Source of the DNA: Pseudomonas mandelii
GTDB lineage: Bacteria > Pseudomonadota > Gammaproteobacteria > Pseudomonadales > Pseudomonadaceae
NCBI RefSeq assembly: GCF_002251635.1
Contig: NZ_NMOJ01000050.1
Coordinates: forward strand, 85,097 to 149,096
DNA: 64,000 nt
Direction of reading: 5' to 3'
Part shown: positions 2,976-62,907 of the stretch, piece by piece
How positions within the stretch are numbered: position 1 is the first letter of the stretch
Layout of the letters: the number at the start of each line of letters is the position of its first letter
The notes under the pieces: generated by a model
What the model saw: only the letters and a program-made list of their open reading frames with translations
Databases searched by the model: none
What the model was told of the DNA's origin: nothing
Program-made: the position numbers and the translations under genes

Positions 2976-2992
2976 ACAACGAAAAAGGGTCA

Positions 2993-3197: not shown

Positions 3198-3348
3198 TCC
3201 CTATAAAACAATAGCTTAAGATATCTTCGACTCTAACGCTAATTCGAGTTAGATACCAACGAATGAATATATCACTCAGCGCTCCAATCTGACCTTACTT
3301 CATATCTCAAACCGCCAGAATAAAACTAACTATGATTAAGGAAAATTG

Positions 3349-4023: not shown

Positions 4024-4056
4024 CTGCATACCCTCTACAGCAAAACGAGATGAAAA

Positions 4057-4935: not shown

Positions 4936-5270
4936 AAATGGCAATATCAGTCGAGTTCCGCGTACAAAAATGGTTAGAAGGAAATCAACAAAAAACTCAC
5001 TTCTCTTGAGCAGAAGCGAAAACGTTGCTCTAGACCTCCTCCAGCAGCTATTTGAACAATTTTTCCTGATCTTCGTAACTGCCCCAACTGAAATGAGTAA
5101 AGCGGTAGGCAACCGACCTTAACGTCACAAACGATAAAGTCGGTACCTTCGCAGCGATGTTAATTGACAATAGCCTCGAACAAATTATTTTAAATCCGTT
5201 CTCGGTATAATTGCGATATTACTCCCAACGTTTGACAACATAGTCTTTTAAAGGCGCTTCTTAGATGCGT
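4936..5270. other. Intergenic gap between convergent AraC and CMD genes
   Basis: I see no convincing gene, RNA or strong hairpin in these 335 AT-rich bases. The minus-strand ORF at 4876-5112 shows no protein-like features. Confidence 0.5.
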
Positions 5271-5804: not shown

Positions 5805-5919
5805 CGAGAACTCCTCTGGATATAGCTTCCAGTAGCGATTTATGACAGCTTCCAGCCTAATCCTCGACGTTCGCCATGTTAATGCTATTATTTACCATTA
5901 TTATGCTCGAGCGTCTCAA

Positions 5920-6897
5920 ATGGACATCTTAAGCAGCTTACTTTTCCTCATGCCCGTGAGCGGCGCGCTCGACACCCGATGTCATTTCAGCCCTCCCTGG
6001 AGACTGGATTACGCGGCTACCGGACCCAGAGAGATCCCTTACCACGTCCTCTTGCGCGGGACTGCGCAGGTGGATGACGGTGAAAACCCCGTTCTGTCTA
6101 TGCAAGCGGGGGATATTTTACTGATACCCTCCGGTGTCCCCCATGTTCTGTATGAGGGCAGTGGGTCACCATCTACAGCTGGTAAAATGCATCGCGAAAG
6201 GGGACTTAAGATTCGGACTAACAGCGAAGATCCGAAACCAGTCAATATGCTGTGTGGGAGATTTATCTTGCCATCCTCCCCACGGCAAATAATCAAGGAA
6301 AGCTTGCCTCGGCAATTAATCATCAGAGGAGTAGACGTACCCGATGAATTGGCTCACTTGACAGAGGAACATGTTGCCAGTAGTCGCTTGGCTCGCTTAA
6401 TTACGTTGATGCATGAAGAGGCGATAGAGCATGGCCCTGGCAGTGAATCAATGATGAATCACATGTCTGGAGCTCTTTTTGGCATGACCTTACGTCTAGC
6501 CAGTGAGAGCGCTGAGCCCCCGATAGGCCTTCTTCGCCTGGCACAACGACCAAGACTCCAGCCAGCTTTCACAGCAATGTTTGAAAATTATTCTAGGACA
6601 TGGTCTATGGCTGAGTTGGCAGACTTGTGCTTAATGTCCAGAGCGACCTTCGCAAGACAATTTGCTGAAGCTGCGGGTAGGTCTGCCAATGATCTGCTTG
6701 TTGAGATACGGATGGCAAATGCAAGTAGACAACTTGCCGAAACATCAGACTCTATCGCCAAAATAGCTCAAGACAGCGGATACAAATCAGACGCAGCATT
6801 CCAAAGAGCATTCAAGAAGCACATGGAGATGACGCCTGCAAGATGGCGAATTCAATCAGCGTACGTTGCGAAACGAGACTTCACTGACCAATCATAA
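5920..6897 (+). CDS. AraC-family regulator with N-terminal cupin domain
   Basis: This 325-residue protein has an AraC-type cupin domain (about 1-190, starting M-D-I-L-S-S-L-L) and a C-terminal AraC double HTH (about 225-315). An ORF start 26 codons upstream exists, but M-D-x-L-S-S-L is the usual N-terminus of this subgroup, so I prefer 5920. The same architecture appears at 22742. It is transcribed away from the CMD gene at 5271, which it probably regulates. Confidence 0.88.
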   Translation: MDILSSLLFLMPVSGALDTRCHFSPPWRLDYAATGPREIPYHVLLRGTAQVDDGENPVLSMQAGDILLIPSGVPHVLYEGSGSPSTAGKMHRERGLKIRTNSEDPKPVNMLCGRFILPSSPRQIIKESLPRQLIIRGVDVPDELAHLTEEHVASSRLARLITLMHEEAIEHGPGSESMMNHMSGALFGMTLRLASESAEPPIGLLRLAQRPRLQPAFTAMFENYSRTWSMAELADLCLMSRATFARQFAEAAGRSANDLLVEIRMANASRQLAETSDSIAKIAQDSGYKSDAAFQRAFKKHMEMTPARWRIQSAYVAKRDFTDQS

Positions 6898-7012
6898 GCT
6901 AATCTTGGCCTGCCATAGCTCCCTACACTATGCCACCCAGATCAAAAATGAAGTCAGATAAATTTAGTGAACACCAAAGCTTTTATTTCAAAGCCTATGA
7001 TTACGTAAAATA

Positions 7013-7029
7013 CGCACGATTTTGAAATA
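7013..7029 (+). promoter_or_regulatory. Recurrent 17-bp motif, copy 3
   Basis: CGCACGATTTTGAAATA has one mismatch to the consensus and lies 427 bases before the DUF417 start. Confidence 0.45.
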
Positions 7030-7146
7030 AATAGCCTAACAAGCAAGATAATCTGCACTAGGTCTAAAGCTGAACCATGCATCCAGACTTTAACTTAGTC
7101 TAAGCACCACGGATCTCACTAAAGGACATAGTAAGGTCATCCCCTT

Positions 7147-7188
7147 GGGTGGGTGCACGCCTCGAAAATCTTGCACCCACTCTTTTTT
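7147..7188 (+). terminator. Intrinsic terminator upstream of the DUF417 gene
   Basis: GGGTGGGTGCA pairs with TGCACCCACTC (11 bp, one G-T pair) and is followed by TTTTTT. It is a textbook intrinsic terminator, 250 bases after the AraC stop. Confidence 0.8.
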
Positions 7189-7455
7189 AAATATTAACCA
7201 GTTGCAAAAAAATTACTTATCAAACTCATTAGACCCTCCGAACCAGGTGACATATCAATTATAAATCTCCAGTGCCAACAGATCACTTAAGTAAAAATCC
7301 ATGTCATCCAACCGAAACTGATCGACATTAGCAAAATCGAATTTTTATTCATCTTGCTAAATTCTAAACGCGACTACAGTGCCAAAGCTCAACTATCAAA
7401 GTCTCCTTTGGTAGGTCACGGACACCATCTAACAACCACATCCCGAGGTAATACG

Positions 7456-7977
7456 ATGAACACTCGCCTGAAACAACCTAACGATGAGATGAAATTCCAT
7501 AATGTAGTAACTAAACCTGCAGGCCCACTCATCACTCGCATAGGCGAGATTACTACTTTTACTGCTTTAACCATAATTTATCTATGGTTCGGCGGAATGA
7601 AATTTACTGCATATGAAGCGAATGGAATATTTGGTTTTGTGAGCCACAGCCCGCTCCTATCCTGGATGTATAACTTCATGAGCATCAATGGATTTTCATA
7701 TTTTCTAGGAGTTCTTGAAATTGCGATTGGGTTGTTAATCGCAGCAAGGTGTATATCTCCAAAGCTGTCGATTGTAGGTGGTATATTATCTTTAGGATTA
7801 TTTGTAACAACGCTTTCCTTTATGCTCAGTACACCACTCGTATTTGAACCGGTAATGGGCTTCCCTGCCATAACTGTTGTTCCAGGACAGTTTTTATTAA
7901 AAGATATTGGACTATTGGCTGCCTCCATCATTGTAATCGGAAACTCTATCTCAGCCCTCGAAACTCGTACAAGATAG
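7456..7977 (+). CDS. DUF417 family inner-membrane protein
   Basis: This 173-residue protein has four predicted membrane helices. It carries the DUF417/YkgB features W-F-G-G-M-K-F-T-x-Y-E-A, S-P-L-L-S-W and P-G-Q-F-L-L-K-D-I-G-L-L. E. coli homologues are linked to hypochlorite/reactive chlorine stress (the RclC group) and the biochemical role is unknown. The ATG at 7456 has GAGG about 7 bases upstream and replaces a start 34 codons earlier. A second copy is at 22122. The surrounding redox genes fit an electrophile or oxidant stress role. Confidence 0.88.
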   Translation: MNTRLKQPNDEMKFHNVVTKPAGPLITRIGEITTFTALTIIYLWFGGMKFTAYEANGIFGFVSHSPLLSWMYNFMSINGFSYFLGVLEIAIGLLIAARCISPKLSIVGGILSLGLFVTTLSFMLSTPLVFEPVMGFPAITVVPGQFLLKDIGLLAASIIVIGNSISALETRTR

Positions 7978-8056
7978 ATATAAGCAAGCGCGACCAACAT
8001 GACAAAAAACTAAGCCCAGGAAGAAATCCTACATGCGAGACTCCCCGCTTAGCTGT

Positions 8057-8965
8057 TCAGGGGAGCTCGATGTAGAGATCTTGTTTATGGAACTCAGAAG
8101 CCAAATGACTAACAAAGGATCGTGCGACCGTCTTCGATGCAGCGCCCGCGGGAAGCGAAGCATACAGTTTAATATCCCCCATATCCCAGCCTTCAAGCAC
8201 GCGAATCAATGTACCTGAATCTATTTCTGCCTGACACGACCAAAGGCCTGTGGACAAAATGCCGGCTCCACTAACAGCAGATGCCATCGCCATCTCACAT
8301 GCATCTGCGGTGATTTTGCCATCAATACTGAGTGACACCGCTTTTCCATTCCGGGAGAACAACCAAGGCCTTCCTCCTGAGGGGGAGGGCCCAACGATAA
8401 TGGAGTGCGCAATTAGCGCTGCAGGTGAACTCGGCATTCCTTTACGTACAAGATATTTTGGGGAAGCCACTAACACCCTAGGAGTGCTCGTAATGAGTCG
8501 CATCGCCGCTTTTGCCTCTTCAGGTTTTATGATTTGCAGAGCAAGATCTACCTGCGCCCTTAATCCGTCCCTACAAGGATGATCTGAAACTAGGTCAACA
8601 CTAAGCGTCGAGTGGAAATCAAGAAACGCAGACAATTTAGGAATAACCTCTCTCAGGGATACACCAGCTTGTATACCTAATCTCAACCGCCCCCGAAGCT
8701 CCCCCCCCCCCTGGGCCGCAAAGTTCGCCTCCTCGAACGCTGCCAATATAGGTTCTATATTCGCCAGGTAACTAGCACCTGCGGGCGTTAACGCCATAGC
8801 ACGCGTAGTTCGAACTAACAACATTACTCCCAGATCACGCTCTAAAGCGGCAATTATCCGCGAAGCTGATGACTGAGAAATACCTAGTTCTTTGCTCGCT
8901 CGGGAGAAACTGCCTGTATGCGCAACGCGTACGAACAACCGAAAGGGAAAAAGATACTCATTCAT
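8057..8965 (-). CDS. LysR-family regulator with an 11-G tract
   Basis: This 302-residue LysR protein has an N-terminal winged HTH (about 5-65, with G-S-F-S-R-A-S-K-E-L and S-Q-S-S-A-S-R) and a C-terminal effector domain (about 90-295). A run of eleven C at 8701-8711 (eleven G in the coding strand) encodes Q-G-G-G-E in the linker between the two domains. Slippage there would truncate the protein after the HTH. The gene is convergent with DUF417. Confidence 0.9.
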   Translation of the reverse strand: MNEYLFPFRLFVRVAHTGSFSRASKELGISQSSASRIIAALERDLGVMLLVRTTRAMALTPAGASYLANIEPILAAFEEANFAAQGGGELRGRLRLGIQAGVSLREVIPKLSAFLDFHSTLSVDLVSDHPCRDGLRAQVDLALQIIKPEEAKAAMRLITSTPRVLVASPKYLVRKGMPSSPAALIAHSIIVGPSPSGGRPWLFSRNGKAVSLSIDGKITADACEMAMASAVSGAGILSTGLWSCQAEIDSGTLIRVLEGWDMGDIKLYASLPAGAASKTVARSFVSHLASEFHKQDLYIELP

Positions 8966-9268: not shown

Positions 9269-9835
9269 ATGTCTCGCTTATCCACAACCAACCCTTCTTC
9301 AGCTCAAGGCACCACTTCAGAAATTTATAACTCTATAAAGAAGTCAGCCGGCATTGTACCTAATGTTTATGCGACAATTGGAACGCATTGCCCATCGGGG
9401 TTAAAAAAAATACTTGAGTTAGATAAAATCATAGAGGGAAGTACACTTTCAGAAGCTGAATTGGCTGCAATAAGACTAAAGGTAAGCACAAATGCGATCT
9501 GTGATTATTGCATAACCGCATATGCCTTTCTTGGACAATTTGCAGGATTATCTAAAGCCACCATAGAAAATATAAGAACCGCACAACCAACTTTAAACAC
9601 TAAAATAGACAAATTACTCGATTTTGTATGCACCCTGCTAACCTCAAAAGGGGTTATCGATTTTTCAAGCATTCAGACACTTTTAAGTGCTGGATATACG
9701 GAAAACAACCTAATAGAGATTTGCTTAGTCATTAGCAACACCACGTTTATTAATTTAGTTAACAGAATAAATAACACGACAATTGACTTCCCTCAGTTTG
9801 ACTTCAAAAATGAAGCCATGGGAAAAAAATCATAA
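9269..9835 (+). CDS. Carboxymuconolactone decarboxylase-like protein, variant active site
   Basis: This 188-residue CMD/AhpD-like protein is closest to the one at 5271: the same M-S-R-L-S-T start, T-I-G-T-H-x-P-x-G-L and F-I-N-L-V-N-R-I-N-N segments. The redox motif reads C-D-Y-C-I-T-A-Y, so the CxxC pair is kept but the usual His is Tyr. This should change the proton relay, and activity cannot be assumed. The gene is markedly AT-rich. AGGGGGAAGC precedes the ATG. It heads the second CMD-AraC-P460 series on the plus strand. The 303-base gap before it (8966-9268) shows no clear signal. Confidence 0.85.
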   Translation: MSRLSTTNPSSAQGTTSEIYNSIKKSAGIVPNVYATIGTHCPSGLKKILELDKIIEGSTLSEAELAAIRLKVSTNAICDYCITAYAFLGQFAGLSKATIENIRTAQPTLNTKIDKLLDFVCTLLTSKGVIDFSSIQTLLSAGYTENNLIEICLVISNTTFINLVNRINNTTIDFPQFDFKNEAMGKKS

Positions 9836-17638: not shown

Positions 17639-18184
17639 TCAGATCGAACCTGCCGGTGTAACGGCGGGAAAGTCTTTCTCGGGATCAAATACGTTATTGA
17701 AAAAGTTCGTCAGGGAGTACATGGCCACCAACGCGATGATCTCCATGACATTCGCATCACTGTAGCCTGCGTCGCGAACGGCTTTCAGATCAACATCACT
17801 GACCTTGCCGCGAGTCTCGATAACTTTGTGCGCGAACTGAAGAGCAGCGTTACGCTTTGGGTCGGAGGCCTGCCCCTTGCGAGCAAGAATCACTTCATCG
17901 GCCGGCAGCTTGGCCATATGCTCGGCCGTAAAGCTGTGAACCATCAGGCAGTAGTTGCAGCCATTCGCTTCAGAGACGGCGAGGCCGATGCTGTCACGCG
18001 TCTTCACATCGAGCGCTTTGCTCATAGAGCCGAGCAGCGTCGCCCATGCGTTGAACGCGATTGGGCTCCGCGCGAAGATTGCCATCATATTTGGAGTGAA
18101 CCCGATGTTCTTGGTGAACGCATCGAGAGTCGGTTTCGAGTCAGCCGGCACTTGTTCTGGCATTAGAACTTCACATCTAGGCAT
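17639..18184 (-). CDS. Carboxymuconolactone decarboxylase (AhpD-like) family protein
   Basis: This 181-residue protein has the redox motif G-C-N-Y-C-L-M-V-H (CxxCxxxH). It is nearly identical to the copy at 28567, differing at about a dozen positions, including M-V-H here for T-V-H there. Members of this subgroup act as thiol-dependent peroxidases or have unknown substrates. It follows the nitroreductase gene on the same strand and would be read from the promoter near 18.9-19.1 kb. The ORF is intact although its neighbours in unit A are decayed, which suggests selection for this pair. Confidence 0.9.
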   Translation of the reverse strand: MPRCEVLMPEQVPADSKPTLDAFTKNIGFTPNMMAIFARSPIAFNAWATLLGSMSKALDVKTRDSIGLAVSEANGCNYCLMVHSFTAEHMAKLPADEVILARKGQASDPKRNAALQFAHKVIETRGKVSDVDLKAVRDAGYSDANVMEIIALVAMYSLTNFFNNVFDPEKDFPAVTPAGSI

Positions 18185-27095: not shown

Positions 27096-27638
27096 TCAGA
27101 TCGAGCCAGCCGGCGGAACAGCGGGATAATCTTTCTCTGGATCGAACACGTTATTGAAAAAGTTCGTCAGGGAGTACACGGCTACCAACGCAACAATCTC
27201 TGCGATGGTTGCATCCGTGTAGCCTGCGTTGCGGACGGTTTTCAGATCCGTGTCGCTGACATGTCCCCGAACCTCGATGACTTTGCGCGCAAACTGGACG
27301 GCGGCGTCGCGCTTCAGGTCGGTTGCATGCCCCTTCCGCGCAAGAATGATTTCATCGGCCGGGAGCTTGGCCATATTGGCCGTATAACTATGAACGGCAA
27401 GGCAATAGTCGCAGCCATTCACTTCGGATACAGCGAGACTGATGATTTCACGCGTCTTCAGGTCTAGGGCCCTATTCAAGGAAGCGCGCCAAGTAGCCCA
27501 TGCGTTAAATGCGATCGGGCTCTGCGCGAAGGTGGCGAGCATATTGGGTGTGAACCCGAGATTCGTTGTGAATGCATCGAGAGTCGATTTTGAATCGACC
27601 GGCACCTGGTCCGGCGTTAAAGCTGCACTTCTAGGCAT
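27096..27638 (-). CDS. Carboxymuconolactone decarboxylase-like protein, third subgroup member
   Basis: This 180-residue CMD protein has redox motif G-C-D-Y-C-L-A-V-H. It is homologous to the two at 17639 and 28567 over its full length but clearly diverged (about 75% alike by eye) and one residue shorter after the motif (T-A-N-M for T-A-E-H-M). It sits 27 bases upstream of the GST start, in the same operon. It is absent from unit A. Confidence 0.9.
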   Translation of the reverse strand: MPRSAALTPDQVPVDSKSTLDAFTTNLGFTPNMLATFAQSPIAFNAWATWRASLNRALDLKTREIISLAVSEVNGCDYCLAVHSYTANMAKLPADEIILARKGHATDLKRDAAVQFARKVIEVRGHVSDTDLKTVRNAGYTDATIAEIVALVAVYSLTNFFNNVFDPEKDYPAVPPAGSI

Positions 27639-28566: not shown

Positions 28567-29112
28567 TCAGATCGAACCCGCCGGCGTTACGGCAGGAAAG
28601 TCTTTCTCGGGATCGAACACGTTATTGAAAAAATTTGTCAGGGAGTACATCGCTACCAACGCGATGATCTCCATGACATTCGCATCGGTGTAGCCGGCGT
28701 CGCGGACGGCTTTCAGATCGGCATCACTGACCTTGCCGCGAGTCTCGATTACTTTGTGCGCAAACTGAAGGGCAGCGTTGCGCTTCGGGTCCGTGGCCTG
28801 CCCCTTGCGAGCAAGAATCACTTCATCGGCCGGCAGCTTGGCCATATGCTCGGCCGTAAAGCTGTGAACCGTCAGGCAATAGTTGCAGCCATTCGCTTCA
28901 GAGACCGCGAGGCCGATGCTGTCACGCGTCTTCACGTCGAGCGCTTTGCTCAAAGACCCGAGCAGCGTCGCCCATGCGTTGAACGCGATTGGGCTCTGCG
29001 CGAAGGTAGCCATCATATTTGGAGTGAACCCGATGTTCTTGGTGAACGCATCGAGAGTCGGTTTCGAATCAGTTGGCACTTGTTCCGGCATTAGAACTGC
29101 ACATCTAGGCAT
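28567..29112 (-). CDS. Carboxymuconolactone decarboxylase (AhpD-like) family protein
   Basis: This 181-residue protein with redox motif G-C-N-Y-C-L-T-V-H is the near-identical partner of 17639. It follows the nitroreductase by 34 bases. The gap 28389-28566 downstream holds a GC-rich segment with weak dyad symmetry but no T-run, so read-through into the SDR gene is possible. Confidence 0.9.
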   Translation of the reverse strand: MPRCAVLMPEQVPTDSKPTLDAFTKNIGFTPNMMATFAQSPIAFNAWATLLGSLSKALDVKTRDSIGLAVSEANGCNYCLTVHSFTAEHMAKLPADEVILARKGQATDPKRNAALQFAHKVIETRGKVSDADLKAVRDAGYTDANVMEIIALVAMYSLTNFFNNVFDPEKDFPAVTPAGSI

Positions 29113-46179: not shown

Positions 46180-46620
46180 TTATTCCGGCTGCATTGCGAA
46201 GCCAACGCCAAAGCGATTCCAGGCGTTGATCGTGGCAATCACAAAGGTCAATTCCGCCAGCTCCTGGTCGTTGAAAGCGGCGGCGACTTCTTCGTAGATG
46301 TCATCTGGTGCATGAGTCGTTGCGACCAGCGTCAGCGTCTCGGTCCATAACAGGGCGGCGCGTTCCTGCTGATTGAAAAAAGGTGTTTCCTTCCAGGTAC
46401 TCAAAGCTGCTAGGCGACGTAATGTTTCACCTTGGTTAACGGCATCGGTGGTATGCATATCAACGCAGTAGGCACAGCCGTTGATTTGGGATGCCCGGAT
46501 CCGTACTAACTCCCGCAAAGCGAGAGGAAGCACCGATTCCGAAATGGCTTTTTCCAGCCCCATCATGGCCTTCATCGCCTGTGGAGCAGCTGCGTAATAG
46601 TTAAGGCGTTTTGAAGTCAT
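46180..46620 (-). CDS. AhpD-like alkylhydroperoxidase / CMD-family protein
   Basis: This 146-residue protein has motif N-G-C-A-Y-C-V-D-M-H (CxxCxxxH), of the AhpD-like single-domain type and clearly different from the other CMD proteins here (R-L-N-Y-Y-A-A-A-P, I-N-A-W-N-R-F-G-V). ATG 46620 has GGAGATAAAGAA before it; the ORF start 14 codons upstream is rejected. It is divergent from the LysR gene at 46732, its likely regulator. Confidence 0.9.
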   Translation of the reverse strand: MTSKRLNYYAAAPQAMKAMMGLEKAISESVLPLALRELVRIRASQINGCAYCVDMHTTDAVNQGETLRRLAALSTWKETPFFNQQERAALLWTETLTLVATTHAPDDIYEEVAAAFNDQELAELTFVIATINAWNRFGVGFAMQPE

Positions 46621-46649
46621 TTCTTTATCTCCAGTCAACCGAAGGTTTC

Positions 46650-46672
46650 GGCTCTGAAGCAACTGTATTGGC
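46650..46672. promoter_or_regulatory. LysR-type operator candidate (CMD/LysR gap)
   Basis: GGCTCTGAAGCAACTGTATTGGC lies in the 111-base divergent gap and repeats the site at 19103-19127 with one base fewer. This suggests the LysR protein at 46732 recognises both. Confidence 0.5.
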
Positions 46673-49140: not shown

Positions 49141-49160
49141 GTGAGGGGCAGCAAACGGCC
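49124..49160. repeat. Palindromic repeat (GCCGATTGCTGCC type)
   Basis: GCCGATTGCTGCC and GGGCAGCAAACGGCC form an imperfect inverted repeat around TGTCGTGA. Related elements lie at 55942-55974, 61731-61768 and 62734-62772. It abuts the MITE-like element at 49157. Confidence 0.65.
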
Positions 49161-49342
49161 GATTCTGTTGAAAAAGTCGGCGTTGGTTTGCGCATCAGAA
49201 AAGTAAGTGTCCGAGATTAAAATCTTTACTTCTGGCAGAGGCTTCCGGGCTCGGATTTCACGTAGCGGCGCGACAAAACGGCGTTTTCACCAGTCAATGA
49301 TCAGGCAATTTGGGCCGGCCGACTTTTTCAACAGAATCGACC
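49157..49342. mobile_element. MITE-like element, copy 1 (186 bp)
   Basis: Terminal inverted repeats GGCCGATTCTGTTGAAAAAG / CTTTTTCAACAGAATCGACC (one mismatch) bound 186 bases with no transposase gene. A same-length, clearly similar copy is at 55971-56156. The internal part shares TAGCGGCGCG and GGCGTTTTCA between copies. It is probably moved in trans by an IS transposase. Confidence 0.75.
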
Positions 49343-49642
49343 CAAAGCTGACGGTCGCAAATGCCAACGAAACACGTGCAAATTCATCCTGCGGACACGT
49401 GAAGGAAAGACTCATAAAAAACTTATGAGGCTCCCATCATCAATGTTTAGATTTAAGTATTAGTGAGAGGCCACCGGCGCCGTGATCACCTGACCACCCA
49501 AGCACACAGCTACTTACCACCTATTTGCATTCGACCGGACCAGTCATTTGTATTGAATTTGGCCAGGTTAGCTGTACTGATCTCAAACTTGCGACGATAG
49601 TTAGTGGTGGAATCGCTGGATAGGCATTATCAACCATTATTG
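49343..49642. other. Intergenic region after MITE copy 1
   Basis: About 300 bases with no supported gene, ending at the NrsF stop. Confidence 0.4.
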
Positions 49643-54963: not shown

Positions 54964-55371
54964 ATGGTTTTCTCTTTATTGATGGCGTTGGTATTAGCGT
55001 TCCTGATTGGCTGGGTTTCGCAGCGCATGGGCATGTGCCTTGTCAAAGCGAGCAAACAATTGCTGGCGGGGCGCCCGACGTTGTTTGTGGCACTGACATC
55101 GTGTGGATTGTTCGGGTTGCTGCTGGCCCAGCTCTATCGTTTCTCCGAGGTCAGCCTGCCGCTGTACTCGCCGGGTATTTCCTATCCTTTACTGGTTTCG
55201 GGAGGCATGTTGTTCGGGGTGGCATCGGTGCTGAACAACGGTTGCAGCGTAGGTACGCTGACCAGGTTTGCCAGTGGCAATTTCAATAAACTGTTCACCA
55301 TGATCGGCTGGGTCCTGGGGATCGTGCTCTGGTATGACATGCGCATGATGCCCGACAGAAGACCCTTCTGA
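54964..55371 (+). CDS. YeeE/YedE-type transporter, N-terminal part
   Basis: This 135-residue membrane protein is the first half of a YeeE/YedE protein, with motifs Q-R-M-G-M-C-L-V (Cys about 23) and N-N-G-C-S-V-G-T-L (Cys about 94). It stops at TGA, where the second half starts (TGATG). Such proteins are normally one chain of 300-350 residues. The pair may be a true two-protein transporter or the result of a frameshift. Confidence 0.75.
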   Translation: MVFSLLMALVLAFLIGWVSQRMGMCLVKASKQLLAGRPTLFVALTSCGLFGLLLAQLYRFSEVSLPLYSPGISYPLLVSGGMLFGVASVLNNGCSVGTLTRFASGNFNKLFTMIGWVLGIVLWYDMRMMPDRRPF

Positions 55372-55874
55372 TGCCCGAAATTTCCAGCCGCCATTACTGG
55401 CTGTTGATCGGTGTAGTGGCGCTGGTGCTGATTTTTTTGGTCGCCATACATGGTAATAAACACCTGGTTTTCTCCAGTATGCTGCTGGGGGCGTTGACGA
55501 GTGCGCTCTATACGTTCGAGCCGTTATGGACACCGAGTGTGTTCTTTTACAATGTTTCGCAGTTGTTCTGGCAAGCCGATATGGCAATCAGCGCCCGGCG
55601 TATTGCTGTGTTTGTCATGTTGCTGGCAGGCATGCTGAGTTTTACCGTGTACGGGAAAATGTTTCGTTTCGAGGCCTTTACCCCATCAAAGGCAGGCGTT
55701 CATTTGTTGGCGGGTATTTTGATGGGGATTGGGGCTTCGATGATGCTCGGCGGTAACGACTCGCAAATACTGTTGGTGTTTCCAACGCTGAGCGTTGCTT
55801 CAAGCATTCCAATGGTGTCGATTGCCACAGGCATTCTGGTGTCATTGTGGTGCAAAAAACGCTTTACGAATTGA
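55371..55874 (+). CDS. YeeE/YedE-type transporter, C-terminal part
   Basis: This 167-residue membrane protein has about five helices and the G-G-N-D-S-Q-I-L segment seen as G-G-N-D-A-L-L-L in the intact YeeE at 12543. It begins one base inside the preceding stop, so re-initiation is plausible. Together the halves total about 302 residues. Confidence 0.75.
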   Translation: MPEISSRHYWLLIGVVALVLIFLVAIHGNKHLVFSSMLLGALTSALYTFEPLWTPSVFFYNVSQLFWQADMAISARRIAVFVMLLAGMLSFTVYGKMFRFEAFTPSKAGVHLLAGILMGIGASMMLGGNDSQILLVFPTLSVASSIPMVSIATGILVSLWCKKRFTN

Positions 55875-56407
55875 ACACCCTCAAGATGGTTCCGCTTTCG
55901 ACTCAATCATAATGATAGAGATGACAGACAGAGATCGACCCATAGCTGCCCGTCGTGGAATGCTGCTTACGGCCGATTCTGTTGAAAAAGCCGGCCATGG
56001 TTTCCACGGTAGAAAAGTATGCGCTTGAGATTGAAATCTTTACATTGAGCAGAGGATTCCAGGCTCAGATTTCGCGTAGCGGCGCGCAAAAAAGGCGTTT
56101 TCAGTGATCAGTATGCGGGCAGTCTGGAAGAATCGACTTTTTCAACAGAATCGGCCAAAAGCTGTCAGTCAGAGTCGAAAACTGGGGGTTCTAGCCCACC
56201 TGATTTTTGAAAGGCAAGCCACCGCTAGCTGCGCGCGTTTGTGTCAGCCAAAAAAATTTGGACGGAGTGACATCATATTGCTTTCTTTCGTCGAGATTTG
56301 AGTTCAGAGTAAAAAAGTAATGTTGGAATTGGTCTCATCGGCAGATCACGTCAGCATGCAATCAGCTCTTTGGAAATGGAGCCAATGTATAATAGCAAAT
56401 CAATGGA
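55875..56407. other. Upstream region of the Hxs operon
   Basis: These 533 bases hold a palindromic repeat (about 55942-55974), MITE copy 2 (55971-56156) and a possible -10 TATAAT at 56388-56393, just before hxsD. No other gene is seen. Composition turns AT-rich here. Confidence 0.5.
55971..56156. mobile_element. MITE-like element, copy 2 (186 bp)
   Basis: Perfect 20-base terminal inverted repeats, GGCCGATTCTGTTGAAAAAG and CTTTTTCAACAGAATCGGCC, bound 186 bases. Length and core equal copy 1, with many base changes inside. It lies at the left border of the AT-rich Hxs segment. Confidence 0.8.
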
Positions 56408-56695
56408 ATGTTGCTCGTGACGAATATCAATCTCATCTATCCTGAGTCATCTCCGGGCAAGCTTTGGGTGGATATCAACCGCCCTTTATCGCTTGCTCTT
56501 CAAGCTGAATTGATTCATAGAGGGTACGAGTTGCGGCAGGTGGACACGGGCCTTCAGGCCTTTTGTTCAGTAAAATCGAACATTCCTACGCTCAATGGGC
56601 TTTTGACGCAATTATTGGATGACGAAGTTACTCGTAGGAAAATCCCACCAAATACATTAGTACGATTGGATATGTTTATGAGTGCTTCTGAATGA
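56408..56695 (+). CDS. hxsD: His-Xaa-Ser system protein HxsD
   Basis: This 95-residue soluble protein, first in the operon, is recognised as HxsD by size, position and order before HxsB. It may act like a peptide-recognition partner for the radical SAM enzymes (inference). The start is uncertain: ATG 56408 or the GTG three codons later. It overlaps hxsB by 4 bases. Confidence 0.75.
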   Translation: MLLVTNINLIYPESSPGKLWVDINRPLSLALQAELIHRGYELRQVDTGLQAFCSVKSNIPTLNGLLTQLLDDEVTRRKIPPNTLVRLDMFMSASE

Positions 56696-58137
56696 ACGCT
56701 AACTTCGTTGCGGGAAGCCTGCTGCCATTCGGATTTCATCGACTCGACGATCAGTCCGTTGTAGCAGTTAGTGCTGCAGGTGACCATACATTTTTGACGC
56801 AACAGGAATTGTTGGCTCTAATCCAAACACCTGAAACATTAGAGCTCAAAAAGCGCGCGGAACTACAATCTAAGTATTTTTTAACCGGAAATAGTTCTAT
56901 CGGAACTCTAGAGCTATTACGATCGCGAATAGCAGCCCGGAAAGAAACTGTATTGGCAGGTCAGTCTTTGCACATAATTGTGCCTACCCTTCAATGCGAA
57001 CATTCTTGTCAATACTGCCAAGTCAGCAGACGCCTTGAAGATGTGGGTCACTCAATGAGTCCATCTCAGATTGATGCTTCCTGCGCGACTATTTTTCAAA
57101 GTCAGGCCAATGCTCTGACAATTGAGTTTCAAGGTGGCGATCCGCTGCTCCGTTTCGATCTTATCCAACGAGCAATTGATCTTATTCAAAAGATGAATCT
57201 GGAGCACAAGCGCCGTATTCGTTTCGTGGTTGCATCAACATTGCACCAATTAACCTCTGGAATGTGTGAGTATTTTAGAAGTAACCAGGTCTACCTTTCA
57301 ACGAGCCTTGATGGCCCGGCGTTGTTGCACAATAAAAACCGCCCAATACCATCGCGTGATTCGCACGCCCGGACTTTGGCAGGAATCGAACTGGCACGGA
57401 GTATCATGGGCCCACAAGCGGTAGCAGCATTGATGACCACAACTAAAGCCTCTCTTGCGTACCCTGAGGCCATTGTGGACGAGTACGTGAAAAATGGATT
57501 CACCGAAATTTTCATGCGACCGTTAAGCTTATATGGATTTGCCAGACGCAACATCAAGCATTTGGGATACACTCTTCCAGAATTCACAAACTTCTATCAG
57601 AAAGCTTTGCAACGTGTCTTAGAATGGAACGCCAGAGGTACTGAGTTACGTGAAGGTACCGCCGCATTAATTTTTAACAAGCTTTTATCACCCTTCGATG
57701 CGGGTTACGTCGACTTGCAAAGCCCGACAGGGTCTGGCCTTGCTGTTCTGGTCTACAACTACGACGGTTATGTCTATCCAAGCGACGAGGCACGGATGCT
57801 CGCCGAAACGGGAGATGGTTCTTTGCGTTTAGGTTCTATTGGTGACTCCCTTGCACAGTTAATGGCGTCTCCTGTCATGAGGCAGCTGATAGAAACAAGT
57901 ATTTCTACTCAAGCAGTAGGCTGTGAAACTTGCGCGTTCAATAGCTTTTGCGGGCCTGATCCAGTTGGGGCGCAAGCCGAGTTTGGCGACATGAGGACTG
58001 TTGCTTTGCTTACTGAACACTGCAAACGACATAAGTGGCTCTTCGAATACTTTTTTCGCAAGTTACGAACTGCCGACGACGATTTTCTCGATATTGCCTA
58101 TCGCTGGGCTCACCCCGCTGGATACTCTAATGCGTAA
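56692..58137 (+). CDS. hxsB: Radical SAM maturase HxsB
   Basis: This 481-residue radical SAM protein has the CxxxCxxC cluster motif C-E-H-S-C-Q-Y-C (C102, C106, C109) and F-Q-G-G-D-P-L near 147. Further Cys residues near the C-terminus (C-E-T-C-A-F-N-S-F-C-G) suggest SPASM-type auxiliary Fe-S clusters, as in peptide-modifying enzymes. An N-terminal segment of about 90 residues precedes the barrel. It probably modifies HxsA together with HxsC. It overlaps hxsC by 8 bases. Confidence 0.9.
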   Translation: MNANFVAGSLLPFGFHRLDDQSVVAVSAAGDHTFLTQQELLALIQTPETLELKKRAELQSKYFLTGNSSIGTLELLRSRIAARKETVLAGQSLHIIVPTLQCEHSCQYCQVSRRLEDVGHSMSPSQIDASCATIFQSQANALTIEFQGGDPLLRFDLIQRAIDLIQKMNLEHKRRIRFVVASTLHQLTSGMCEYFRSNQVYLSTSLDGPALLHNKNRPIPSRDSHARTLAGIELARSIMGPQAVAALMTTTKASLAYPEAIVDEYVKNGFTEIFMRPLSLYGFARRNIKHLGYTLPEFTNFYQKALQRVLEWNARGTELREGTAALIFNKLLSPFDAGYVDLQSPTGSGLAVLVYNYDGYVYPSDEARMLAETGDGSLRLGSIGDSLAQLMASPVMRQLIETSISTQAVGCETCAFNSFCGPDPVGAQAEFGDMRTVALLTEHCKRHKWLFEYFFRKLRTADDDFLDIAYRWAHPAGYSNA

Positions 58138-59311
58138 GGTCCGTGTACGAACGCATGGCGTTGAATATCGAACAGTAGCTAGAGTGATTTCGCTCGAGAA
58201 TTTGAGCGCGCAGTGGCGACCCGAATTGAGATTTTTAGTGAGGGCCGCAGATGCGGAGGGGATTACCAAAGTTGCGCAACTGCGTAGTGCTGGGCTAACC
58301 AACCTGATTTCACTGACATCTAGTCTCCATGTCGCAGACCAATGGCAGGCAGAGCCTGTGGTTGAAACCGGCGGCATTCTGATGGACGAAGACGTAGTAG
58401 CCTTCGCCGACCACATGAATCACGCGCATGTCCTATATCGGTATACAGACCAGCACCACACTGTTTTCCTCACCAATCGGTGCAATAGCTATTGCCTAAT
58501 GTGCTCGCAGCCCCCGACAAAACAAGACGATAGCTGGTTGGTGAACGAGGCGGTAGAAGTCGCCAATCATATAGCTAGCTCTCCGCATACATTGGGATTT
58601 TCCGGAGGGGAGCCTTTGTTGCTGGGTGAGCATCTGCGTCTTGTGCTTGATACCTTTGCTCATCAACATCCTAGCACTCGGTACGACGTGCTGAGCAATG
58701 GCAGGCTGTTAGCTAATCCGATCTATGCTGAGCACATGTTAAAGGGGTTGAGTGAGCGCGTAACATGGATGGTGCCGCTCTATGGACATGCCGACTTTCT
58801 ACATGACTTCGTCGTTCAGAGCCCGGGGGCATTTGAGGAGACACTGGCTGGTCTATTGAATCTTCGTCGATTTGGGCAAGCCGTCCAGCTGAGAATTGTG
58901 CTCATTCGCCCTGTTTTGGAAAACCTTGCAGCGCTTTGCGAATTCATTGGTCGTAATTTGCCTTTCGTACGTGAGGTCGCATTAATGGCATGCGAACCCA
59001 TTGGCTTTGCTTTGGCAAACCCTGAACTGACCGACATTGACCTTCGAGAATGGAGCGCTGAGCTCAGTCACGGCATCAGAACACTGAAGCGAGCGAAAAT
59101 ACCTGCCATTTTGATGAATGCCCCACTCTGCGCTTTGCCACAAATTCTGTGGCCGTATGCACACAAAAGCATCTCCGATTGGAAACGTACGTTTGCGGAG
59201 GACTGTGCTACTTGCAGAGTGAAAACAGAGTGTGCAGGTCTTTTCTCATGGCATCACCCAGGTAAATTTTCGATGAAAATCCAAAAAATTGAAGGGATTA
59301 TCAATGTCTAA
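58130..59311 (+). CDS. hxsC: Radical SAM maturase HxsC
   Basis: This 393-residue second radical SAM protein has motif C-N-S-Y-C-L-M-C (C118, C122, C125), F-S-G-G-E-P-L-L near 155 and C-terminal C-A-T-C and C-A-G Cys pairs. The start at ATG 58130, inside the end of hxsB, replaces an ORF start that lies 43 codons upstream. HxsB and HxsC occur together in all systems I know. Confidence 0.9.
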   Translation: MRKVRVRTHGVEYRTVARVISLENLSAQWRPELRFLVRAADAEGITKVAQLRSAGLTNLISLTSSLHVADQWQAEPVVETGGILMDEDVVAFADHMNHAHVLYRYTDQHHTVFLTNRCNSYCLMCSQPPTKQDDSWLVNEAVEVANHIASSPHTLGFSGGEPLLLGEHLRLVLDTFAHQHPSTRYDVLSNGRLLANPIYAEHMLKGLSERVTWMVPLYGHADFLHDFVVQSPGAFEETLAGLLNLRRFGQAVQLRIVLIRPVLENLAALCEFIGRNLPFVREVALMACEPIGFALANPELTDIDLREWSAELSHGIRTLKRAKIPAILMNAPLCALPQILWPYAHKSISDWKRTFAEDCATCRVKTECAGLFSWHHPGKFSMKIQKIEGIINV

Positions 59312-59933
59312 ATTCATCACGTCGCTGTCAGCGTTCGTTGCCGGAACTTCTTTGGTGAACACTGACGTGCAAGCCCTGGAGCAGGGACTGAAGAACCCTT
59401 TCGCCAGCAGATTTGACCCGGTCAGCTTACGACCGCTGAACATGCCCGGCGATAATTTATACGCAGCCCATCGATCCCACTCGTCACATTCCTCGCATTC
59501 ATCTCACAGTTCAGGAAGCGGTTCCTACTCTGCTCCAAGCCGGACTTACACGGCACCAAGTAAAACTTATCCCCCCCCCAGCCCTGCCTATTCAGCACCA
59601 AAAACACCTTACTCAAGCAACTTTGGAGCGAGCGGTTCGAACAGTCTTGGTGGTTCCACCGGTAGCCGCAATCCTGTAGATGCAGGAAGGCCTTCGACAG
59701 TCAGCCCCATCGGCTCAGATTTTGATCCTAATAATAAAAAACTCATGGAGTTAATTAGGCGCGTACAGATGGGTTTGATTATCAAAGGTTATGAACCTGG
59801 CACCATAGACGGCGTAATGGGAGAGCAAACTCGTTTGGCACTGAAATTGTTCCAGTCTCATAACAGCTTGCCTGCAGATGGCATGATGGGTACGCAAACA
59901 CTGAACGCCTTAGGCGTGATTGTTCCCAAATGA
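59304..59933 (+). CDS. hxsA: His-Xaa-Ser repeat protein HxsA
   Basis: This 209-residue secreted protein has a signal peptide (about 1-25), then five consecutive His-Xaa-Ser triplets (residues 56-70: HRS, then HSS four times) and a Ser/Pro/Tyr-rich linker. A C-terminal peptidoglycan-binding domain (about 148-205: G-Y-E-P-G-T-I-D-G-V-M-G) follows. The triplets are the presumed modification site. A run of nine C at 59571-59579 in the linker could slip. ATG 59304 follows GAAGGG. Confidence 0.92.
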   Translation: MSKFITSLSAFVAGTSLVNTDVQALEQGLKNPFASRFDPVSLRPLNMPGDNLYAAHRSHSSHSSHSSHSSGSGSYSAPSRTYTAPSKTYPPPSPAYSAPKTPYSSNFGASGSNSLGGSTGSRNPVDAGRPSTVSPIGSDFDPNNKKLMELIRRVQMGLIIKGYEPGTIDGVMGEQTRLALKLFQSHNSLPADGMMGTQTLNALGVIVPK

Positions 59934-60325
59934 ATCGCAGGGTCTATAGATATCTTCGACTTTGGGCTCCCGTGATATCCGTGATCGGACTGGGCTTCAT
60001 TGTTTTCCAAGATTATGTTCGACCGCTTATCGCCGAATATAGTCACGGTGATGAGTACAAGCGACTCGCTTTAGAGTGCGACTTGGCAATGCATGAGGAA
60101 GCTGCGCTACGGGGATTAATCGGAAATGATCCACAGTCCGAGCGTCTCAGGTTAAGTGCAGACGTTGGGATGATGGTCTGTCACGACTACGACATACTTC
60201 GTAAGCAGCTATTAATTCAGGGACTATCAGAAGACCAACTGGCGATGTTAGGCCTGGAGGTTCTTGAAGTCGAACAAATCACGGTACAGCAGATGGTCGA
60301 TGCTCATCGCATGGATAGATTTTAA
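59930..60325 (+). CDS. Small Hxs-system membrane-anchored protein
   Basis: This 131-residue protein has one N-terminal membrane helix (about 10-28) and a helical soluble part rich in Glu and Leu with Cys near 50 and 84. It matches the small TIGR03982-type protein that accompanies Hxs systems. The start overlaps hxsA by ATGA. Function is unknown. Confidence 0.75.
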   Translation: MNRRVYRYLRLWAPVISVIGLGFIVFQDYVRPLIAEYSHGDEYKRLALECDLAMHEEAALRGLIGNDPQSERLRLSADVGMMVCHDYDILRKQLLIQGLSEDQLAMLGLEVLEVEQITVQQMVDAHRMDRF

Positions 60326-60326
60326 T

Positions 60327-61691
60327 ATGAGGAAGCTGATTCTTACGTATTTTATTCTCCTATCGTGGATTAGCCATCTGCAGGCATCGCAACTTAACCA
60401 TGAAGATCAACTTCTGAGGAAAGTGCTCACTGCCTATCGGGTTGAGCCCATGACTATCAGGCCGTTGTTCATGGGCCCGAAGGAAAAATTAGGGCAGATG
60501 CTGTTTTTTGATCCCATCATGGGGGGGCCAAACAACACGACTTGCGCGACTTGTCACGTCCGTAGCAAAGGCAGTGTTGACGGATTACCTATGGCCGTGG
60601 GTATCGGCTCAAGCGGAGTGGGAGAGCAAAGGCTTCAATCTCCAGAAGCTTTTGTAATACCCAGGAATGTGCTCCCGTTTTTTAATCGTGGAGAAAGCGA
60701 TTTTACCGCTTTATTTTGGGACGGACGAGTACAGATTGGCAAAAATGGCAGTTTTGAATCGCCTATGGGTAATAAAATGCCAAAGGGATTCGAAAATCTA
60801 CTTGCCGTCGCAGCAACCTTCCCCCAAGTGGAACCTGATGAGATGCTGGGCCGATCTGTACGCCGCGGAGGTGAGAACCAAGCCACCTACCATGCGGATC
60901 TAGTTGACATGACAGTCGACCCTGATAACTTTCAAGAGCGCACATTGAATGTTTATGGTAATTTACTTAAACGCTTGCTAGGCACTTCGACCGCCTCGAC
61001 CCCTATGCAGTCCGAATATAGAAGACTTTTCCAGTCAGCTTATCCGGCTACAAGCAAGTTTGATATCACTCATATTGGCAATGCCTTGGCAGCTTACATT
61101 TCCTTAGCGTTTCAGCTTAAACCAGCAGCTTGGGATAGCTATGTAAGTGGAGAAATCTCAGCTTTATCCCCGCAGCAAAAAAAAGGGGCGATGATTTTCT
61201 TCGGGAAAGGGCGCTGTGCGGTTTGTCATACAGGAGAGGAATTCTCGGACTTTAAATATCACGGACTTGCCGTTCCGCAACTCGACGTTGGCAAGCACGG
61301 AGGTTATTTAGATTATGGAAGGGCAAAAGCGACGGGATTGGCCATAGATCGCTTTCAATTTCGTACTCCACCGCTACGTAATGTTACGCGCACTGGGCCA
61401 TGGGGGCACAACGGTGTATTCAAATCCTTGGAAGAAGTCATTAGTCATCACTTTAACCCCATTCCATTAATGTTTGCCGCACAGAAAGGCCGACCTCGCG
61501 AAGCGGAACTCGCGGGGCGGCTATTGAGGTACCGCTCCCCCATCCTTGCCGAGATCTACCCGATGGCGCCAAACGACGTGGGGGCAGTCGTCGCGTTTCT
61601 AGAGGCACTGCAATCAGATCCTATTTTGTCAACTGATGAAGCTCTGCCTAAATCAGTCCCCTCAGGGATGAACCAGTTCATTGTTGAATGA
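60327..61691 (+). CDS. MauG-like di-heme cytochrome c (Hxs-associated)
   Basis: This 454-residue secreted protein has a signal peptide (about 1-20) and two heme c motifs, C-A-T-C-H (C73, C76, H77) and C-A-V-C-H (C297, C300, H301). The arrangement is that of the MauG / cytochrome c peroxidase family. MauG performs long-range oxidation of a partner protein. Placed last in the Hxs operon, it may finish the modification of HxsA in the periplasm. It needs the Ccm machinery. A start at 60327, one base after the previous stop, replaces a longer ORF start. Confidence 0.9.
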   Translation: MRKLILTYFILLSWISHLQASQLNHEDQLLRKVLTAYRVEPMTIRPLFMGPKEKLGQMLFFDPIMGGPNNTTCATCHVRSKGSVDGLPMAVGIGSSGVGEQRLQSPEAFVIPRNVLPFFNRGESDFTALFWDGRVQIGKNGSFESPMGNKMPKGFENLLAVAATFPQVEPDEMLGRSVRRGGENQATYHADLVDMTVDPDNFQERTLNVYGNLLKRLLGTSTASTPMQSEYRRLFQSAYPATSKFDITHIGNALAAYISLAFQLKPAAWDSYVSGEISALSPQQKKGAMIFFGKGRCAVCHTGEEFSDFKYHGLAVPQLDVGKHGGYLDYGRAKATGLAIDRFQFRTPPLRNVTRTGPWGHNGVFKSLEEVISHHFNPIPLMFAAQKGRPREAELAGRLLRYRSPILAEIYPMAPNDVGAVVAFLEALQSDPILSTDEALPKSVPSGMNQFIVE

Positions 61692-61730
61692 ATCGCGCTA
61701 CTTTCGTGCACACATAGACTGACCGCTTTT

Positions 61731-61768
61731 GGCCGATTGCCGTCTATCACGACGGTACGCAATCGGCC
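61731..61768. repeat. Palindromic repeat after the MauG-like gene
   Basis: GGCCGATTGC and GCAATCGGCC form a perfect 10-bp inverted repeat, extended inward by CGTC/GACG, 40 bases after the stop. It belongs to the repeat family at 49124 and 62734 and could stabilise or end the transcript. Confidence 0.75.
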
Positions 61769-61850: not shown

Positions 61851-62498
61851 TTAGGGGGCGCTTTTTTGTGGCACTGATCCTTGGAGCCGCTCGAGTCTAC
61901 TTAGCTTATGGACTAGCAGCCTAGCCCCACTATCATCCACGAATTGCTCATACAAAACGGTGCTGTCTCGGAAGTGATTGTCTAGGCGATTCAGGACATC
62001 TCTTAGTGCTGCGAGCATATCCTCGACTGCAGCTCTGCTGATGCCGCTGAGAGGATTGGAGTTTCGGTTACTAAAGTAGTTGTGATCTTGATGAGCTATA
62101 CGTTTGTTGCGATGCTCGCGGGCGAACTCTGCTGCCGTTACCGCCTTAGTGCAGAGATCCTGAGCCTCCGCCCTTAGCGCGGAATCAGTGATAAGTGGTG
62201 AAAGCGACAGCACGGTTAGGTTCTTTTTTTTTCCTGTACTAGGTGGGTCCGTCATTCGTGACACGCCCAGGAGTACGCTATCCCAAAGCTCATCTTGCAC
62301 GATTTTAAAGAATAAACCAGCCGTTCTATTGAGCAGCTGAACCGTGTCAGTTGAATCTCCGAAAAGCTGCCGATACTGCTGCCAGAGAACATGAAGCTCT
62401 ACGAGTTCTCTATAAAGTTCGTAGAAATTAGCACCGAGCTCTTGTCCCATCGTGGAAATATAATCGGCACGTACTTCGTCCATGGATCGCGTTACCAT
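61851..62498 (-). CDS. AbiU2-like HEPN domain protein
   Basis: This 215-residue helical protein has the motif R-N-K-R-I-A-H (RxxxxxH-type HEPN site, about 131-137) followed by Q-D, as in AbiU2-related proteins. HEPN proteins are often RNases in toxin-antitoxin or anti-phage systems. No partner antitoxin is adjacent, so it may be a stand-alone defence gene or have another role. The start at 62498, after AGAGGG, is preferred over one 7 codons upstream. Confidence 0.75.
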   Translation of the reverse strand: MVTRSMDEVRADYISTMGQELGANFYELYRELVELHVLWQQYRQLFGDSTDTVQLLNRTAGLFFKIVQDELWDSVLLGVSRMTDPPSTGKKKNLTVLSLSPLITDSALRAEAQDLCTKAVTAAEFAREHRNKRIAHQDHNYFSNRNSNPLSGISRAAVEDMLAALRDVLNRLDNHFRDSTVLYEQFVDDSGARLLVHKLSRLERLQGSVPQKSAP

Positions 62499-62907
62499 TG
62501 AGTGCCCTCTCACTACCATTTGGTGACATCACTCCCGCGCTTGAGCGCGGCAGTGATGCTCTATAACGTTTCTTGTCGTCCTGCTAGCCGTTTTCTAGCC
62601 TGGTGGGAATCGCAGCGCGACATAGCCCAAGGAGAAACGCGACACGGATGACGCCAAGCTTAGCTGCGCTAAAGTTTCAGTGCTGAAGGTTGACGCTACC
62701 TATTTGCCACTAGTCTGTCCAGCGGCTGCTTCTGGCCGATTTCTGTCTGTCGTGAGGGACAAAAATCGACCCAAAACGGCCCATCTTGGAGGTCCGCAGT
62801 CGGAAAAAAGCGCTCTTCGAGCATCCTCCTGACCCACCTCTTTTCCCATTGAGTGAATTAACCGAAAGTGACTAGCGTCAGAAAGCGTAATTCTCGTCGT
62901 TACAGTC
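62499..62907. other. Intergenic region between HEPN and CusF genes
   Basis: These 409 bases hold the palindromic repeat at 62734-62772 and no supported gene. Confidence 0.5.
62734..62772. repeat. Palindromic repeat (GGCCGATTT type)
   Basis: GGCCGATTTcTGTC and GGGACAaAAATCGACC form an imperfect inverted repeat around TGTCGTGA, the same core as at 49124-49160. Confidence 0.65.

Follow-up and report, generated by a model that had tools for sequence, protein, structure and literature searches.

The sequence described here is a 64,000-nucleotide stretch of Pseudomonas mandelii DNA (contig NZ_NMOJ01000050.1, hereafter the window), which is part of a 6.67 Mb draft genome assembled in 251 contigs. 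It contains a His-Xaa-Ser (HxS) operon at positions 56408-61691, with six genes arranged head to tail on the plus strand. The genes are joined by four overlaps of 4 or 8 nucleotides (nt) and, at the last junction, by a gap of 1 nt. Five of the six encode proteins that score above the curated cut-offs of their NCBI families (NCBIfam), namely the radical S-adenosylmethionine (SAM) maturases HxsB and HxsC, the substrate protein HxsA, a TIGR03982 protein and a di-heme, MauG-like protein of the family TIGR03981. The operon is enclosed in a 5.6 kb block with inverted repeats at its ends, and this MauG-type HxS variant looks, from a comparison of its copies, like a mobile cassette.

Organization of the operon

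An earlier note on the window had described a complete HxS gene set in AT-rich DNA, tightly packed and with overlapping ends. The gene set, its coordinates, its motif counts and the packing were all confirmed. Both radical SAM proteins have the intact CxxxCxxC motif that was claimed (C102/106/109 in HxsB and C118/122/125 in HxsC), HxsA carries five HxS triplets and a peptidoglycan-binding domain, and the small protein predicted to be anchored, a member of TIGR03982, has an N-terminal hydrophobic helix by hydropathy. The term AT-rich holds in relative terms only, as GC content is 48.7% in the coding block and 48.6% in the whole 5.6 kb block, against values of 59-63% for four loci elsewhere in the genome. 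Among candidate start codons, those preferred on reading are ATG at 58130 for HxsC and ATG at 60327 for the MauG-like protein.

HxS systems with the genes HxsABCD were reportedly catalogued by Haft and Basu in 2011, a work cited in PMC9062424. Like these systems, the window has HxsA, HxsB and HxsC above the NCBI cut-offs in one operon; unlike them, it has a first gene that falls outside the HxsD family TIGR03976 and two extra genes, those of TIGR03981 and TIGR03982. Both accessory families have been named HxS-associated by NCBI, so the operon is a fresh example of an already named variant. The open-licence literature, where most subscription papers are missing, yielded no report that deals with the chemistry of HxS systems or with the TIGR03981 protein. 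The additions made here to the earlier note are the apparent mobile cassette and, in one genome, its place in a slot that it has in common with defence genes.

Block ends and possible mobility

The ends of the block can be recognized by an inverted repeat (Table 1), which the earlier note had missed together with the block itself. Within the window, the pattern TCGGCCAAAAGCNGTCAGTC (up to three mismatches) occurs only at 56151-56170 on the plus strand and at 61717-61736 on the minus strand, and two sites were obtained in none of 100 shuffles. The 18-nt core GGCCAAAAGCNGTCNGTC has two exact copies in the draft genome, at the two block ends, while its relaxed form has three. Among 176 fetched loci, many of which are too short to include both ends, only those of the MauG type gave a match to the relaxed end repeat.

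The extent of homology between copies agrees with these ends. For the loci L037, L038 and L160, the part homologous to the window starts at 56131-56152, within about 20 nt of the left repeat, and stops at 61734-61744. Loci L080-L082, which share one site, match the window from 55970, through a miniature inverted-repeat transposable element (MITE)-like repeat common to both, to 61699, and the match between L080 and L038 begins at the left repeat. Where the compared copies lie at different sites, their flanks are unrelated and the DNA that they have in common is the block alone, MITE-like repeats aside. By these comparisons, the block is a unit with repeats as its boundaries, and the sites that it occupies are unrelated to each other.

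Several observations argue against movement of the block as a mobile cassette. L080-L082 have no right repeat, and the end repeats are degenerate in L037 and L160. There is no transposase among the six assigned genes of the block, and movement would therefore need one in trans. No clear target duplication was seen by eye at the block copies. Finally, when the flanks of the copy in another Pseudomonas genome, G119, were joined and compared with 296 genomes of the genus, 17 gave a match, but no match spans the joint with both full flanks as an empty site would.

Alternatively, recombination at intergenic repeats, and not the transfer of a defined element, may account for the common block ends. 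At several sites the block is adjoined by MITE-like repeats, and in L160 there is one on each side of the cassette, in opposite orientation; moreover, at the right end of L038, the repeat core GCTTTTGGCCGAAAGC forms a palindrome. The low copy number of the end repeat in the draft genome speaks against such recombination, with the qualification that an assembly of 251 contigs may collapse repeats. We regard recombination as a possible origin, though a rather unlikely one.

Table 1. Features of the HxS block and its surroundings (window coordinates)
Feature	Position	Strand	Basis
MITE-like repeat, ~200 nt, with 29-nt inverted ends; abuts and slightly overlaps the left block end	55965-56162 (or 55963-56156)		
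Left terminal inverted repeat, AATCGGCCAAAAGCTGTCAGTC	56149-56170	+	22-nt arm, 95% complementary to 61717-61738
Diverged HxsD-like protein, 95 amino acids (probable)	56408-56695	+	hhalign, predicted fold order, L161 fusion
HxsB, radical SAM maturase with auxiliary-cluster cysteines	56692-58137	+	TIGR03978, 551.7 bits (cut-off 370)
HxsC, radical SAM maturase	58130-59311	+	TIGR03977, 348.3 bits (cut-off 267.9)
HxsA, substrate protein	59304-59933	+	TIGR03979, 155.5 bits (cut-off 121.65); PG_binding_1
HxS array, HRS-HSS-HSS-HSS-HSS	59469-59513	+	HxsA residues 56-70
Peptidoglycan-binding domain of HxsA	59751-59912	+	PF01471, residues 150-203, 55.6 bits
TIGR03982 family protein, one N-terminal hydrophobic helix	59930-60325	+	TIGR03982, 90.5 bits (cut-off 40)
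TIGR03981 di-heme (MauG-like) protein	60327-61691	+	TIGR03981, 546.5 bits (cut-off 340)
Codon of H375, position of MauG Tyr294	61449-61451	+	Alignment to MauG chains and residue conservation
Right terminal inverted repeat	61717-61738	-	Complementarity and pattern scans

A second MITE-like copy is located at ~49157-49356 of the window, and both copies have the ends CGATTCTGTTGAAAAAGYCG. This end pattern (up to one mismatch) occurs five times in the draft genome, always on the contig of the window (C198).

Distribution and phylogeny

The closest named relatives of the window HxsB are from Pseudomonas and are 94-95% identical. With matches taken at E values up to 1e-60, 298 genomes of the genus gave 40 with HxsB and three with TIGR03981. 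TIGR03982 was found in one of 369 genomes of the class, namely that of the window. At E values up to 1e-40, TIGR03981 was matched in 19 of 398 genomes of the phylum, of which only the window's own exceeded the family cut-off. According to profiles built for this study, eight of 110 loci have the MauG-like protein, and the same eight have the TIGR03982 protein; three further loci of the MauG clade (L083, L110 and L161) are cut or interrupted.

A midpoint-rooted tree was built from 78 of the 110 HxsB sequences, with 29 near-duplicates and three fragments (L156, L171 and L110) dropped. The MauG-type sequences, L083 and L161 form one clade (support 100/99), which is nested in a clade of 31 (100/100) whose other 22 members have neither gene at the locus as far as their contigs reach. 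In the 23 sister-clade loci (L085-L107), neither a MauG-like nor a TIGR03982 gene was found beside HxsB (L096 is cut off inside HxsC), and no canonical HxsD was found with a profile built here. On reading, an HxsD-like open reading frame (ORF) lies directly upstream only in L093 and L097. No TIGR03981 protein above the cut-off is encoded elsewhere in the 18 sister-clade genomes tested (18 of the 23 loci), although a di-heme relative of lower score is present in two of them (257.7 and 149.2 bits). Judged by this distribution of sequences, the MauG-like and TIGR03982 genes are accessory to the HxS set.

In the Halomonas locus L083 (7325-13416), HxsC is broken by several kb with a 989-residue ORF that, on reading, resembles a Tn3-type transposase. 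A TIGR03981 protein above the cut-off is encoded on contig C3 of the same genome, apparently just past the interrupted locus.

Other HxS systems have also been found in mobile contexts. In a plasmid collection, 439 records match HxsB, of which 319 are from Klebsiella and 332 are typed as conjugative. In the Klebsiella locus L078, HxsD, HxsB, HxsC and HxsA are flanked by insertion-sequence genes. HxS genes are listed in island or mobile contexts for a P. aeruginosa sequence type 277 strain and a Vibrio parahaemolyticus region in two reports (PMC8446631, PMC6537148). The Klebsiella plasmids and a Leptospira phage resemble the window in carrying HxS genes in mobile contexts, but the stretches compared (L078 and L079) differ from it in having no MauG-like gene.

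The HxsD-like protein

The first ORF of the operon, at 56408, had been called HxsD in the earlier note. Its position agrees with that name, yet it was not matched by the HxsD model TIGR03976 even at an E value of 10. We call it HxsD-like because of a weak profile similarity, a like order of the fold and one fusion to HxsB. First, a profile of the 95-residue protein with seven relatives matched 16 canonical HxsD sequences with an hhalign E value of 3.1e-4 and a probability of 39%. Second, the predicted structure has the order strand-helix-strand-strand-helix (mean predicted local distance difference test score, pLDDT, 70.7, from eight sequences), and a model of a canonical HxsD (pLDDT 93.1) has the same order. 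Third, a single ORF in L161 (5617-7428) contains an HxsD-like match (35% identity, E value 8e-12) followed by HxsB (77%), a fusion that may be frameshift-made or evolved. By position and by predicted fold, the first ORF is probably a diverged HxsD.

Foldseek gave no match with an E value up to 0.001 for either HxsD model. A wider look (best Z 7.7) returned mostly common ferredoxin-like or KH-like arrangements, with no RiPP recognition element (RRE) or PqqD among the 50 matches listed. The modelled order of secondary structure does not suggest an RRE (PqqD-like) fold, although the protein may yet have one.

HxsA, its array and the maturases

The five triplets of HxsA are contiguous, and a sixth match, HNS at residue 186, lies outside the array. 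At the DNA level, the five 9-nt units are 59% alike, compared to a mean of 55.5% (range 46.7-68.9%) for random synonymous codons, and in 87 of the 105 arrays, serine at position 3 is encoded by both TCN and AGY codons. The array was therefore rejected as a young DNA repeat. Since the similarity of its units stays within the range of random synonymous codons, the motif is maintained at the protein level.

The longest contiguous run in 105 loci is three to eight triplets, with six in 70 of them; MauG-type arrays (n = 9) have five triplets in eight loci and three in L037. L161 is included in the MauG type in these tallies by virtue of its HxsB, as its contig ends after HxsA. HYS forms the final triplet of 21 of the 22 sister-clade arrays and of 62 of the 74 others, but ends none of the nine MauG-type arrays; the array of the window thus lacks the terminal HYS of 83 of the 96 other arrays. 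The residue three positions before the array is Tyr in all nine MauG-type arrays, Phe in all 22 of the sister clade and Tyr in 51 of the 74 others. Since this Tyr is also found in those 51 arrays, it was dismissed as a MauG target in HxsA. Because of shared ancestry, these counts cannot be treated as independent, and they favour near relatives and Pseudomonas because the genome scan took the best 80 of 454 relatives. Furthermore, the arrays were located by means of the HxS pattern itself, so the counts cannot show how strictly His and Ser are kept.

In both maturases the radical SAM cysteines are intact, and each enzyme has one further conserved set of four cysteines. The cysteines C102/106/109 and C411/414/420/444 of HxsB are invariant in 11 aligned sequences, and in HxsC, C118/122/125 are present in all 109 aligned sequences and C334/359/362/368 in 107 of them. 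HxsB gave matches below the cut-off to several models of peptide maturases, including the peptide-crosslinking families PapB (76.9 bits) and GrrM/OscB (TIGR04261, 69.5 bits).

The HxsA array fits, by motif, the substrates of the triceptide (three-residue cyclophane) enzymes, in which an aromatic residue stands at position i. According to PMC11002830, HaaB and YhhB link His C2 to the beta carbon of the residue at i+2, and MscB links Phe to the beta carbon of Ser. By analogy, our best guess is a His to Ser link at i+2, which would unite these two chemistries. XncB, OscB, MscB, HaaB and YhhB resemble HxsB in combining a radical SAM domain and auxiliary cysteines with an aromatic-X-X motif. HxsB differs from them as a separate equivalog family and in an operon with two radical SAM enzymes, and HxsA, a protein of 209 residues with a wall-binding domain, is unlike the triceptide substrates. 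Two findings weigh against a crosslink. HxsB is far below the cut-off of every cyclophane-enzyme family (for the best of them, TIGR04261, 69.5 bits against 310), which leaves the crosslink as an analogy only, and one of the five triplets in L037 is HSY instead of HxS.

The di-heme protein

The TIGR03981 protein has the heme sites C73-C76-H77 (heme 1) and C297-C300-H301 (heme 2), with H375 as a putative axial ligand. It has three features in common with MauG, MbnH and BthA: membership in the CCP_MauG family, a Trp between the hemes and the absence of a distal His at heme 1. Where classical cytochrome c peroxidases (CCPs) have that His, the aligned residue is I93. W131, in the sequence FWDGR, is aligned to an FWDGR of a CCP and is presumably equivalent to Trp93 of MauG, the Trp between its hemes. 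In alignment to MauG chains, H375 is at the position of the axial Tyr of MauG. The best match in the PDB, 3ORV, which we take to be the Y294H mutant of MauG, also has His at this position, while the four other MauG chains listed have Tyr. H375, W131 and E172 are each present in all eight HxS copies, seven of which are close Pseudomonas-type sequences and one, Salinicola L084, is the sole distant row.

The protein is far under the cut-offs of TIGR04039 and of the MauG model TIGR03791 (102.2 of 443.85 bits), and the MauG chemistry proposed in the earlier note is doubtful in view of this score and of His instead of Tyr in 8/8 copies. The putative His ligand of heme 2 sets the protein apart from MauG, MbnH and BthA. 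According to PMC6405878, the heme ligand of BthA is Tyr, and BthA Y463H loses the near-infrared bis-Fe(IV) feature and keeps peroxide reduction; the same loss is reported there for MauG Y294H. With His for Tyr at the ligand and this behaviour of the two mutants, a bis-Fe(IV) mechanism seems unlikely for the TIGR03981 protein, and a peroxidase-type oxidation would be more likely. Since the inter-heme Trp is kept and the distal His is absent, oxidation of HxsA in the periplasm may still occur.

One point counts against the part given to this enzyme in the pathway proposed below. Among outgroup di-heme relatives, His is found in the H375 column in 25 of 27 rows, and hence this His is not special to HxS; in the column of the inter-heme Trp, 24 of the 27 have His.

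In a different reading of these genes, the main function of HxsA would be that of a metal or heme-redox protein attached to the wall. Its His array, whether modified or not, would bind copper, nickel or zinc, and the di-heme protein would be an ordinary periplasmic peroxidase that uses or protects HxsA. The five closely spaced histidines would suit such a function, as would the place of the di-heme protein in the His-ligand group of CCP_MauG proteins and the peroxide reduction kept by BthA Y463H. Metal binding, though, would make superfluous the two cysteine-intact radical SAM enzymes found with the array at almost every locus examined, and we consider this reading unlikely.

The earlier note had also suggested a periplasmic modified protein. 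The peptidoglycan-binding domain of HxsA and the hydrophobic N-termini of HxsA and of the TIGR03982 and MauG-like proteins (by inspection and hydropathy) agree with that suggestion, except for the part that relied on MauG. These N-termini fit with export or anchoring of the three proteins. In the TIGR03982 protein, C50, H55, C84 and H85 are invariant in an alignment of seven sequences.

Genomic neighbourhood

Several copies have genes of mobile elements or phages in their surroundings. The G119 element contains a tyrosine integrase, DUF927 and a weak Phage_ASH match. The L037 copy adjoins an integrase, DUF3987 and a Schlafen-type helicase, the L081 copy adjoins DUF3987, and the L160 copy, on a contig from a viral collection, adjoins tail-collar and Rz lysis genes. 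Both G119 flanks are located on one contig in eight of the 17 matching genomes, G119 included, and in the other seven there are 6.1-11 kb of different DNA between the same flanks.

A PADLOC scan of 19 ORFs from all seven slots gave matches in four. The L184 slot contains a retron reverse transcriptase II-A (398 bits) and HEC-07, the L189 slot SIR2 and HerA (525 and 543 bits), and the L187 slot AbiU (120 bits), which is AIPR in Pfam; weaker matches in the L186 slot are a partial PifA/QatA match (60 bits) and a PDC-S60 candidate (79 bits). Among the other slots, PADLOC gave weak matches only for L185 (best 28 bits) and none for L183 or L188. The L183 slot has a glyoxalase-family match and ORFs that, on reading, resemble a chemotaxis receptor and an acetyltransferase. 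In the L188 slot, two ORFs of 1260 and 864 residues (4388-8167 and 1534-4125), without PADLOC match, are candidates for unknown systems.

The cassette could accordingly be viewed as conflict cargo, in which a modified HxsA, anchored at the wall, shields the host of the element from phages or competing elements, for instance through a change in phage entry or in lysis at the peptidoglycan. The elements and phage genes beside the G119, L037, L081 and L160 copies, the PADLOC-matching genes within the G119 slot flanks in four of seven other Pseudomonas genomes, and the AbiU2-domain gene that adjoins the window copy are in line with this view. P4-like satellites of E. coli, moreover, are defence hotspots with retron, SIR2-HerA and AIPR cargo, according to PMC9122126. 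The G119 slot resembles these hotspots in having variable cargo within the conserved flanks of an integrative element; it differs in that the Pseudomonas element is typed by DUF927, an integrase and a weak Ash match only and in that the G119 cargo is a protein-modification operon. This view rests on place and not on function. Three of the seven slots have no clear defence protein, one of them with the glyoxalase-family match, and the AbiU2-domain gene has no PADLOC match. We consider a role as conflict cargo improbable.

The AbiU2-domain protein (61851-62519; PF18734, 79.9 bits) is encoded directly beside the block, and a near-identical N-terminus occurs in the slot of genome G031 (L189). On the other side of the block, at 54964-55874, two adjacent ORFs match separate parts of the sulphur-transport family PF04143 and perhaps represent a split YedE-like transporter. 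Elsewhere in the window, the ORFs at 5274-5804, 9269-9832, 17642-18184, 27099-27638, 28570-29112 and 46183-46662 have, by eye, the look of a paralogous family, and those at 17642, 27099 and 28570 have very similar starts.

Proposed pathway

We propose that the window contains an HxS operon of the MauG-associated variant, carried on a non-autonomous, repeat-bounded mobile cassette, and that its products would act in a pathway of crosslinking followed by oxidation. Taken as a whole, this proposal is in our judgement evenly poised between right and wrong. The sequence itself shows the genes and their motifs, the residues at the heme sites, the inverted repeats and the lack of relation between the flanks; the crosslink, the way in which the enzymes share the work, the second oxidation and actual movement of the block are inferred. 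In the cytoplasm, HxsB, with the HxsD-like protein as partner, and HxsC would act on the five triplets of HxsA. In the most likely reaction, the imidazole of each His would be joined to the beta carbon of the Ser at +2, giving a three-residue ring with the loss of two hydrogens per triplet. HxsA would then be exported and held at the wall through its peptidoglycan-binding domain. In the periplasm, it would meet the di-heme enzyme and the TIGR03982 protein, the latter anchored in the membrane. The di-heme enzyme, with heme 2 ligated by two histidines, would most likely carry out one more oxidation, for which peroxide would be used at heme 1 in a five-coordinate state.

Implications

It is conceivable, though we give this extension slightly less credence than conflict cargo by itself, that the MauG-type HxS operon is a self-contained cassette swapped by satellites and prophages through slots for defence cargo, and that its crosslinked, heme-oxidised and peptidoglycan-tethered product serves as a surface weapon or shield in conflicts between phages and satellites. 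If this were true, protein modification would be at work where nucleases and abortive systems usually sit. Three results make the question of the product testable. The sister-clade form in which HxsB, HxsC and HxsA alone were found (for example the Massilia locus L085) is the simplest to express. The difference at the heme site predicts what the MauG-like protein will and will not do, and the placement of the operon among the cargo of mobile elements hints at where a phenotype should be sought.

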